DNA of 61,951 bases. Source: an uncultured bacterium. Its GTDB lineage: Bacteria > Cyanobacteriota > Vampirovibrionia > Gastranaerophilales > Gastranaerophilaceae. Positions 6,824-57,393 of the stretch are shown here, piece by piece. Under the pieces are notes generated by a model, which was given only the letters and a program-made list of their open reading frames with translations, made no database searches and was not told where the DNA came from. The stretch's first letter is position 1, and each line of letters begins with the position of its first letter. The stretch spans positions 1-61,951 of the forward strand of contig CASFPS010000011.1 in NCBI GenBank assembly GCA_949296355.1, in the 5' to 3' direction. The position numbers and the translations under genes were made by a program.

Positions 6824-6849
6824 TCCTGCAATCTATAAACATTTTTTAT

Positions 6850-6893
6850 ACAAAAAAGGACAGCATCTCATAACTACTGTCCTTTTTTGTTAA
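6850..6893 (+). terminator. Bidirectional terminator after Fic gene
   Basis: A 14-bp stem ACAAAAAAGGACAG / CTGTCCTTTTTTGT separates the converging Fic gene and the minus-strand small-protein operon. T runs on both strands make it usable in both directions. Confidence 0.85.
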
Positions 6894-6930: not shown

Positions 6931-7164
6931 TTAACCGGTATAATAACTCATCAAATTTGCCAGACGGTGCTGCTTTTCTGCAGCTCTTTCAATGTTTTGC
7001 TTGATTTCGTCAAGCTCTTTTAATAAAGTATTCAGATCTTTACGTCGTTTGCTCTCTAGGCGTTCCTCCTTTACTGTCTGCCCTTCTTCTGATTCCGTCA
7101 AATCAACTTCAAGCCAATTTGGCGAAAAACAATTATTTTTATATTCTTTTTTATCAATACTCAT
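6931..7164 (-). CDS. Small coiled-coil protein, 77 aa
   Basis: I do not recognise a family. The protein is hydrophilic. Its second half (residues ~35-70, RLESKRRKDLNTLLKELDE..) is a predicted amphipathic helix or coiled coil rich in Lys, Glu and Leu. AAGGAG lies 7 nt before the ATG. It is the second gene of a two-gene unit, starting 8 nt after the stop of the 57-aa gene, and both lie behind a sigma-28-type promoter at 7463-7489. That suggests, without proving, a role tied to motility or to a late-expressed regulon. Confidence 0.65.
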   Translation of the reverse strand: MSIDKKEYKNNCFSPNWLEVDLTESEEGQTVKEERLESKRRKDLNTLLKELDEIKQNIERAAEKQHRLANLMSYYTG

Positions 7165-7172
7165 AATACTCC

Positions 7173-7346
7173 TTAATAGTTTTTTGCGGTTTTTAAAGTA
7201 TTAATAACACCTCGTACAAATTGCATGATGTTAGATACAACATCCCTGCATTCAATGTAATCCCTGCGAACTTCCTGAAACTCTTTTGAATTAAAATCAA
7301 ATGATGTCATCTCGGAATATTCAATTAGTGCTTCATGTTCGTCCAT
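7173..7346 (-). CDS. Small acidic protein, 57 aa
   Basis: This frame reads MDEHEALIEYSEMTSFDFNS and ends GVINTLKTAKNY. AAGAGGT lies 8 nt before the ATG, and the TAA is immediately followed by the ribosome site of the 77-aa gene, so the two are likely co-translated. It is largely helical, acidic at the N-terminus and basic at the C-terminus. No family is recognised. The first gene after a sigma-28-type promoter about 120 bp upstream, it may belong to a flagellar-class regulon. Frame, ribosome site and coupling make it a real gene in my view. Confidence 0.6.
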   Translation of the reverse strand: MDEHEALIEYSEMTSFDFNSKEFQEVRRDYIECRDVVSNIMQFVRGVINTLKTAKNY

Positions 7347-7462
7347 CACTATACCTCTTAATCAACAGCCGGGAAGGAAATAAATAATTTTTGTTCAATA
7401 TCTTTATTGCCGTACTCCCTTTATACACGATTTTGTTTTGCTTTGTTTTGCTTACAGATATG

Positions 7463-7489
7463 TTAACGGCATTTTTTTCAAAAACTTTA
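7463..7489 (-). promoter_or_regulatory. Sigma-28 (FliA)-type promoter, copy 1
   Basis: On the minus strand: TAAAGTTT, an 11-bp spacer, then GCCGTTAA. This matches the FliA consensus TAAAGTTT-N11-GCCGATAA with one mismatch and exact spacing. It points to the small-protein operon at 7346-6931. Identical architecture is found at 16844-16870 and 57014-57040. Confidence 0.7.
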
Positions 7490-7616
7490 GGGTTTTTGAA
7501 AAAATGTTTACAATTTGTTACACTAACCCCCGCAAACCCGCACTGTTAGAGGATTAACAAAAGTATACAAAGATATAATTCCGGAATATGACAAAAGAAT
7601 ACATCTTTAACAAAAT

Positions 7617-15390: not shown

Positions 15391-16761
15391 TTAAACTGCA
15401 TTTACTACTTCGAATAGTGCATTTACTACCACCGGATCCCACTTAACTCCGGCTTCTTCTTTTATAATCTCTAACGCCTGTTCTTTATCCATTGCTTTTC
15501 TGTAAGACCTGTCTGATGTCATAGCTGTATAAGCATCGGCAACAGCTATAATTCTTGAGCCGAACGGGATGGAATTTCCTTTCAATCCTTCCGGTTCGCC
15601 GCCGCCGTCCCAGCGCTCCTTGTGGTAATGAATATACGGAATTACTTCTGAGAGGAAATTTATATTCATCAAAAGATTTACGCCGACATTCGGATGGTTC
15701 TGGAGTTTTTCCCACTCTTCTTTTGAAAGCTTGCCTTTGTTTGCAAACAAGGATTCCGGAAGGGTAATTTTTCCGATATTCTGCAATAATCCGGCATAAT
15801 AAACCAGATCTGTTGTTTTTTCGTTCAGACCCAGCTGTCTGCATAACTTTCTTGATAAATCTGCCGTGTTCTGAGAGTGGGCAACTTTGTACTGACCTTT
15901 TTCATCAACGGCTTTTGCAAGTTTTTCTACAAACGCCTGCTGGTTTGCACCCAAATCACCGATCAATGCGGTTAATTCTGCTCTCTTGTGCTGTAAATCC
16001 TCAGCAAAAACACTTTCGTCATTAATCAGGGCTTCTGTCTCTTCGATTGTTTTTTGAAGATGCATTGATGTACCGAACAATCTTCCTATAGTTTCCAAAA
16101 GATTCATATAAGCACGTTTGATTGTTTTTTCCCTGTAATTTTCAATAACAATTACACCTACGACATGCGCATTGTTATGCATCGGAACCACTGCCAGAGA
16201 TTTTACATCATACTCTTTTAATTCATATTTAGGAATAAAATTATCAATCTTTGACACATCTTTAATCTGTACTTTCTCCAGCGTATTGAAAGATTTAACT
16301 ACAATAGACTTGTCATCTGCAGTATATCCTAATTTTTTGGCATAAATATCTTCATCAAAATCCACGGAAGAACCGGCAAGCCCGAGAACTTTATTTTCAA
16401 AGTCCAAACCCTTGGTAAACTCATTTGTAAGATAGATATGGCAGGCATCTACATCAAGTATCTGGGTTAATGTTTTGGCAATAGAGTTATAAACTACATA
16501 CTCATCCTGAGAGTTAAATCCGAGTACACAGAGTGTGTTATCCAGTGAATATATTGAAATTAATTCCTTAAGCTGGGATTTTAATCTTGTTGTCTTATCC
16601 TTGACATCCTTGCCTATCTTACCGGCAAGTTCTTCGGAAATCAAATATTCAGATACAAAGTCGCCGATATTCAACGCAAAGATTTCCTCAAGCGGATCAT
16701 CTTCCATCAAGTCTATTGAGCGGCTGAAGAGTGATGCACCCATTTCTTCTTTATCTGTCAT
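15391..16761 (-). CDS. GAF plus degenerate HD-GYP sensor protein
   Basis: The 456-aa protein has a GAF-like sensor region (about residues 60-225) and a C-terminal HD-GYP fold (about 285-440). The fold is clear from AHSQNTADLSRKL, the NHPNVGVNLL segment and AVADAYTAMTSDRSYRKAM. Key catalytic residues are changed: the HD pair reads QN (GLLQNIGK), the HH pair reads HK (HYHKERWDG), and GYP reads GEP. The domain is therefore probably catalytically dead and may act as a binding or signalling partner. The gene lies behind a sigma-28-type promoter at 16844-16870, linking it to a flagellar-class regulon. A cytosolic location is expected; no membrane segment is visible. Confidence 0.8.
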   Translation of the reverse strand: MTDKEEMGASLFSRSIDLMEDDPLEEIFALNIGDFVSEYLISEELAGKIGKDVKDKTTRLKSQLKELISIYSLDNTLCVLGFNSQDEYVVYNSIAKTLTQILDVDACHIYLTNEFTKGLDFENKVLGLAGSSVDFDEDIYAKKLGYTADDKSIVVKSFNTLEKVQIKDVSKIDNFIPKYELKEYDVKSLAVVPMHNNAHVVGVIVIENYREKTIKRAYMNLLETIGRLFGTSMHLQKTIEETEALINDESVFAEDLQHKRAELTALIGDLGANQQAFVEKLAKAVDEKGQYKVAHSQNTADLSRKLCRQLGLNEKTTDLVYYAGLLQNIGKITLPESLFANKGKLSKEEWEKLQNHPNVGVNLLMNINFLSEVIPYIHYHKERWDGGGEPEGLKGNSIPFGSRIIAVADAYTAMTSDRSYRKAMDKEQALEIIKEEAGVKWDPVVVNALFEVVNAV

Positions 16762-16843: not shown

Positions 16844-16870
16844 ATAACGGCACAAATTTCAAAAACTTTA
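16844..16870 (-). promoter_or_regulatory. Sigma-28 (FliA)-type promoter, copy 2
   Basis: On the minus strand: TAAAGTTT, an 11-bp spacer, GCCGTTAT. It lies about 80 bp upstream of the GAF/HD-GYP gene. Both boxes and the spacing fit the FliA consensus. Confidence 0.7.
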
Positions 16871-56512: not shown

Positions 56513-56983
56513 TTAGCTCATAAATTGCGCCTGATATGCTCTATATGTTATCGGCGCTTCCTGAGCTTCCGGCTTATTGGACAATCCAAAAGCCTGCTGC
56601 GCCTCAGATCTTAAGCCTGCAAAATATGTCATTGCCTGACCGTCAATTGCACTCTGGCTCAATAACTGAATGGCGTTGTTGAATGCTGCGTAATCTTTGT
56701 CATAATCACCTGTCGCCTGTATCCCGATTTGTGCCATAATTCCTGCCCAAGGTATAACCTTTTCATTATTCTGATTCTTAATCTGTTCCTGAACCTGCGC
56801 AGAATACTCTTCATACATTGCTTTGTTCAGTTTTTTCAAGTCATCAGTAGAACCGGTAGGGGTAATGTCAAAATCGTCAAAGGCTCTCTCCAAAGCAGCC
56901 GAATTAACCGGGACTCTGCCCAGATAAGAGTAAATGTTTGAACTTGTGTAAGTATATACTCCGTTGACCGTGAAGTTTGACAT
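56513..56983 (-). CDS. 156-aa protein behind a sigma-28 promoter
   Basis: No family is recognised. The N-terminus MSNFTVNGVYTYTSS is hydroxyl-rich; the middle and C-terminal parts are helical (LKKLNKAMYEEYSAQVQEQIKNQ), with a hydrophobic turn around PWAGIMAQIGIQATG. AGAGG lies 7-8 nt before the ATG at 56983; a GTG three codons upstream lies inside that site. A FliA-type promoter lies 31-57 bp upstream, so the protein may be a flagellar or motility-linked component, or a late secreted protein. It has its own terminator. Confidence 0.7.
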   Translation of the reverse strand: MSNFTVNGVYTYTSSNIYSYLGRVPVNSAALERAFDDFDITPTGSTDDLKKLNKAMYEEYSAQVQEQIKNQNNEKVIPWAGIMAQIGIQATGDYDKDYAAFNNAIQLLSQSAIDGQAMTYFAGLRSEAQQAFGLSNKPEAQEAPITYRAYQAQFMS

Positions 56984-57013: not shown

Positions 57014-57040
57014 ATATCGGCATTTTTTCTAAAAACTTTA
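57014..57040 (-). promoter_or_regulatory. Sigma-28 (FliA)-type promoter, copy 3
   Basis: On the minus strand: TAAAGTTT, an 11-bp spacer, GCCGATAT. Seven of eight bases match each box consensus or better. It points to the 156-aa gene. Confidence 0.72.
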
Positions 57041-57393
57041 GAGTTTTTCAAAAAATCGTTACAAAAGTTTACATTACAGGGCTGAACACCAGTAATAACA
57101 AGAAAATTATTTTGTATATTAATAGCTTATTATATTAAGAAATGTAACAAAGACAGCAAGCTTTGAAATTCGCTTAAGCTTATAAACTTTATATATATGT
57201 AAGACGAATCTAATAAAAATAAGAGAGTAAAGATAATCGGCAAGTTAAATATTAAAGCTTTGACCGTTAATTCCGGTTTGAACTTTATAAATATTAACAG
57301 CCGGCTTAAGTAAAAATGCGCCAACAGAGCTTTACTGACGGGCTTAAGTAATTGCGCTCTTTTTATCAAAACTAAAGATGAGGTGAGAGAAGT

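Follow-up and report, generated by a model that had tools for sequence, protein, structure and literature searches.

The question raised by the window analyzed here, a 61,951-nt stretch forming contig 11 of a 2.09-Mb, 99% complete genome, is what would transcribe the small genes lying behind positions 7463-7489 and whether these genes belong to motility. A motif scan of the window finds TAAAGTTT-N11-GCCGTTAA on the minus strand from 7489 to 7463, with the place, strand, and 11-nt spacer that a first-pass annotation had given for a sigma-28 (FliA) promoter; measured against TAAAGTTT-N11-GCCGATAA, it is off at 1 of 16 positions. The window holds seven matches with three mismatches or fewer, versus 1.5 expected, and none of 100 shuffles gets to seven, in line with the earlier view that chance is unlikely. 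The two further promoters with an 11-bp spacer that had been listed are also present (16870-16844 and 57040-57014).

Beyond the window, a scan of the whole genome for TAAAGTTT-N11-GCCGWTAW returned 20 exact and nine one-mismatch matches. A codirectional ORF lies downstream of all 20 exact sites and of 28 of the 29 sites overall, and the sole exception, C1:6567, falls within a coding frame. The motif is thus not randomly placed relative to genes.

Eight proteins with sigma-70 region 2 are encoded in the genome, among which the FliA candidate is C8:91659-92558. It scores 231.6 bits against TIGR02479 (FliA/WhiG; curated cut-off, 189.6) and 218.9 against PRK06986 (FliA; curated cut-off, 201), so that the proposed check for a fliA gene has a positive outcome. 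The flagellin gene at C16:21206 is preceded by TAAAGTTC-N11-GCCGATAA (C16:21140), which begins 66 nt before the start codon and has one mismatch to TAAAGTTT-N11-GCCGATAA. Because the FliA gene passes its curated cut-offs and flagellin has the same promoter, the reading of 7463-7489 as a FliA promoter appears to be right, and support for this predicted identity is about as good as sequence allows.

When the FliA sites of the genome were aligned on the -35 box, a second element was found. While the FliA core of the first-pass annotation stands, a phased upstream box is absent from it: at most sites the first base of TGTAA-N5-TGTAA lies exactly 33 bp before the T that opens the -35 box, and at one site it is found at -44, i.e., one helical turn further. 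Read on the opposite strand, this repeat matches the HLR1 consensus KTTACAWW-N2-KTTACAWW, which the response regulator RpaB binds in cyanobacteria (PMC13421787; PMC11633204). The consensus also predicts positions that lay outside our search pattern, namely, A or C following each TGTAA and two A/T positions ahead of the second, and these are as predicted in all 21 paralogous and all 56 orthologous sequences, with the outer WW present in 77 to 89% of the orthologous set. In the window, the 18-mer register of HLR1 is 7507-7524, AGTGTAACAAATTGTAAA, which starts with AG where the consensus has WW and is therefore one W position off.

The composite TGTAA-N5-TGTAA-N18-TAAAG has 21 exact matches in the genome; the composite pattern with a gap of 20 to 26 nt gave no match, the actual gap being 18 nt. 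Counted with two mismatches or fewer, composites number 20 in the source genome and 15 to 25 per genome in five congeners; the 117 genomes of the order together have 260, versus 1 for a reversed control pattern. Most genera of the same family have only 0 to 2 composites despite near-universal FliA (above cut-off in 114 of the 117 genomes of the order). Flagellin promoters served as a control: of 30 loci taken from the genus, 18 were resolved, and all 18 have the FliA core with 0 to 3 mismatches and lack the HLR1-type box, with 7 to 9 of 10 positions mismatched at the place of the box. We consider the RpaB-type box well supported as a putative functional element and, as a predicted RpaB site proper, reasonably supported.

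The flagellin promoters of the genus (L220, L228-L247) have a conserved upstream inverted repeat of their own, e.g., ATCATACAAATGTATGAT or CTCCATATGGAG, and TAAAGTTG is duplicated just before their -35 box.

Table 1. Predicted promoter elements and associated genes in the window
Feature	Coordinates	Strand	Remarks
FliA (sigma-28) -10 box GCCGTTAA	7463..7470	-	Motif scan; kept in all homologous loci
FliA -35 box TAAAGTTT	7482..7489	-	11-nt spacer to -10; kept in all homologous loci
HLR1-type direct repeat TGTAA-N5-TGTAA, predicted RpaB site	7508..7522	-	18 nt upstream of -35 box
TGTAAGCAAAAC	7445..7456	-	Directly after -10 box, around expected start; strongly conserved among homologous loci
57-aa gene (MDEHEALIEYSEM...)	7173..7346	-	Genus-specific; predicted two-helix protein
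77-aa gene (MSIDKKEYKNNCFSPNW...)	6931..7164	-	Genus-specific; predicted long C-terminal helix
Probable intrinsic terminator, GGACAG-13 nt-CTGTCC then T6	6846..6884	-	Identified by eye; bounds operon
Third FliA promoter, FliA-only class (HLR1 box absent)	16844..16870	-	Motif scan
GAF-HD (HD-GYP type) protein, 456 aa, behind FliA-only promoter	15391..16761	-	
Second FliA promoter TAAAGTTT-N11-GCCGATAT	57014..57040	-	Motif scan
HLR1-type box TGTAAACTTTTGTAA of second composite promoter	57059..57073	-	Kept in 30/30 homologous loci
156-aa genus-specific gene, after second composite promoter	56513..56983	-	

Behind the promoter are two small genes of no recognized family, as the first-pass annotation had described them. 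Neither the 57-aa nor the 77-aa protein has a Pfam match, and no credible family emerged for either from Pfam, PHROGs, PDB sequences, or Foldseek. The two-helix prediction for the 57-aa protein has a pLDDT of 91, while for the 77-aa protein the prediction is confident for a C-terminal helix and poor for the N terminus. The end of the 77-aa gene (6931-6936) reads ...YYTG, where its closest relative (L164, 97% identical) goes on with EFAK, making the protein four residues shorter here. The terminator listed in Table 1 is absent from the scanner output, its loop exceeding the length that the scanner allows.

Of 46 genomes of the genus, 44 have the 57-aa/77-aa pair, and 31 other genomes all lack it. 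Homologues of the operon are found in MAGs, many of them named Candidatus Gastranaerophilales and several coming from rumen, horse, goat, or yak gut, which places the source genome among the nonphotosynthetic Cyanobacteriota. All 55 homologues of the 77-aa gene in the named-MAG collection keep the composite with 0 to 2 mismatches in the 18/11 geometry, in a test that allowed 25 geometries; since these loci are related by descent, they do not amount to 55 independent trials. Shuffled upstream regions have 8 to 12 mismatches at best. A separate search, whose taxa overlap the 55, gave 30 of 30 loci with the composite at 0 to 2 mismatches, an 18-nt gap, and an 11-nt spacer. Positions between the boxes vary among homologous loci. 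At the second composite promoter of the window, loci of the 156-aa gene have the composite in 30 of 30 cases and the exact geometry in 28.

The conservation of TGTAAGCAAAAC, around the expected start, nearly equals that of the promoter boxes, and several paralogous sites have TGTAA at a similar place.

Do the composite promoters serve motility, as the first-pass annotation had suggested in proposing a motility-class regulon and a scan before flagellar and chemotaxis genes? Flagellin does have the motif, and the FliA-only class does contain flagellin and an HD-GYP protein; among the scanned targets of composite promoters, there are no flagellar families. Composite targets range in size from about 42 aa to >2000 aa and are mostly orphan proteins, genus-specific where tested. 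Few have a Pfam match, with weak EF-hand or LysM matches in some. Two of the first genes that were scored equal the signal-peptide controls in N-terminal hydrophobicity; one of these has a weak site only, and the other is 381 nt off, behind a possible small gene. One composite promoter precedes a 1047-aa gene, further downstream of which lie fliPQR-, flhB-, and flhA-like genes, named by eye (C4:86000-105999). Because signal peptides are missing and the 1047-aa gene has this fliPQR-like neighborhood, our guess is that the targets may be exported.

The source genome encodes FliA, flagellar FlhA, FlhB, and flagellin. The order as a whole has an FlhA-family gene in 117 of 117 genomes and a flagellar-type copy in 40, and nearly all genomes without the flagellar type keep a second, divergent FlhA. 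Two genomes without a flagellar-type copy, G087 and G105, have 9 and 11 composites, whereas many genomes with a flagellar-type FlhA have none, and for this reason the composite regulon does not follow the flagellum. The proposal that the size of the composite regulon tracks flagellar FlhA was rejected, as there is no such relation among the 117 genomes. What stands of the motility-class regulon is therefore the predicted dependence on FliA, with the FliA gene and the flagellin core in its favor; motility targets do not stand, given the orphan genes and the composites of G087 and G105. The label "motility regulon" would be at most half right.

The source genome also has a second full-length FlhA paralogue (C30:11844-13934), which adjoins a FliH-like gene, and a third protein, consisting of the FlhA C-terminal domain alone, on C15 (L075:10615-12087).

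These data bear on a rival explanation, that 7463-7489 is nothing more than a FliA promoter for a flagellar or chemotaxis gene and the TGTAA repeats are an A+T-rich UP element for the alpha subunit. The flagellar gene content of the genome would suit it, and the upstream region is A+T-rich, as are the box and the genome. However, the G residues of the repeat are fixed, its period is strictly 10 bp, and its gap is fixed at 18 nt; it is absent from flagellin promoters, its targets include no recognizable flagellar genes, and composites also occur in genomes without a flagellar-type FlhA. We consider this explanation improbable.

Which regulator might occupy the box? The genome encodes four OmpR-type regulators, only one of which passes the cut-off of the RpaB equivalog NF045944 (355.2 bits; cut-off, 330). 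This RpaB candidate is 64 to 69% identical to RpaB of Nostoc, and DTRVVDVHISRLRSKLE, its presumed recognition helix, is identical to that of Nostoc RpaB in the alignment. One of the other three is perhaps of the RpaA type. Half-sites can be common to related regulators, and any of these three could bind the box in RpaB's stead, which would make the partner of FliA an RpaA-type or another OmpR-family protein. Against such a substitution stand the single regulator above the equivalog cut-off, the shared presumed recognition helix, and the fit of the published HLR1 consensus at positions outside the search pattern, and we regard it as unlikely, if a little less so than the UP-element explanation. 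Homologues of RpaA, RpaB, and NblS were reported in Melainabacteria in 2013-2014 with their role left open, and the accessible text of these reports proposes no target genes or binding sites for RpaB (PMC3787301; PMC4040986).

The position of the box may speak to the sign of regulation. Assuming that the first transcribed base lies about 7 nt past the -10 box, the 18-mer would occupy about -68 to -51; in cyanobacteria, RpaB activates from HLR1 at about -66 to -45 (PMC13421787). RpaB could instead repress here, as cyanobacterial RpaB does from HLR1 sites overlapping the core promoter (PMC13421787), but the boxes lie clear of the core promoter and, counted from the expected start, near the activating position, and both modules are conserved jointly at fixed spacing. 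Repression from an RpaB site has, in our estimation, only a slim chance of being correct.

Just upstream of the likely fliA start (C8:92505-92542) lies an exact copy of the HLR1-type repeat that points the other way; three of five congeners have it with 1 to 2 mismatches. Because this box is only partly conserved, we do not claim that fliA is autoregulated through it.

Activation by RpaB together with FliA is the reading we prefer. RNA polymerase bearing FliA would recognize TAAAGTTT-N11-GCCG(A/T)TA(A/T), and a regulator of the RpaB family (OmpR/PhoB type) would bind the HLR1-type repeat about 51 to 68 bp upstream of the expected start, where, held on a fixed helical face, it would activate the FliA polymerase. 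FliA alone would then serve flagellin and a few other genes, whereas FliA with the response regulator would serve some two dozen other operons, the 57-aa/77-aa pair among them, whose products are mostly orphan proteins without signal peptides. That FliA polymerase and an RpaB-type regulator together drive a regulon outside motility from these composite promoters is, we think, quite probable; RpaB as the binder and activation as its effect we infer from the motifs and the orthologue. A further step is more tentative and, in our view, somewhat doubtful: RpaB, known from cyanobacteria as the light and redox regulator, may here be a co-activator of FliA polymerase in a large regulon whose orphan products leave the cell through a type III (flagellar-type) apparatus. 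That apparatus would perhaps be a second FlhA-type system kept after loss of the flagellum, and the specificity for HLR1 would then predate photosynthesis in the phylum.

Fixed phasing in such a promoter would link a two-component regulator to the flagellar sigma factor and would group the mostly orphan genes, two dozen per genome, into one coregulated set. The defined set of sites makes the role of RpaB without photosynthesis directly testable, and it suggests that HLR1 was already recognized before this lineage and the photosynthetic cyanobacteria split.

The composite promoters resemble several known systems in part. With the FliA promoters of enteric and other flagellated bacteria, they share the -35 box TAAAGTTT, the 11-nt spacer, and a -10 box of the GCCGATAA type, in a genome that has both fliA and flagellin; unlike the classic promoters, most copies here add the phased upstream box and serve orphan genes that are not recognizably flagellar. 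Chlamydial sigma-28 is likewise a flagellar-type sigma factor used outside motility, a likeness drawn at the level of the sigma factor, and we know of no RpaB-type box in the chlamydial sigma-28 regulon. The earlier accounts of RpaA, RpaB, and NblS in Melainabacteria, so far as their accessible text goes, concern the same regulator (PMC3787301; PMC4040986), and within the accessible portions of the open-access literature, a search for HLR1 in flagellar regulation, or for RpaB in this class, yielded no earlier report of a FliA-HLR1 composite. The closest likeness on the regulator side is to photosynthetic cyanobacteria, which have the same direct repeat with a 10-bp period, close to whose activating position the box here would lie, and an RpaB orthologue, and whose published RpaB regulons consist of photosynthesis and stress genes (PMC13421787; PMC11633204). 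In contrast to the cyanobacterial HLR1, the box of the composite promoters occurs in one orientation only, its distance to the FliA core is fixed, and its host is nonphotosynthetic.
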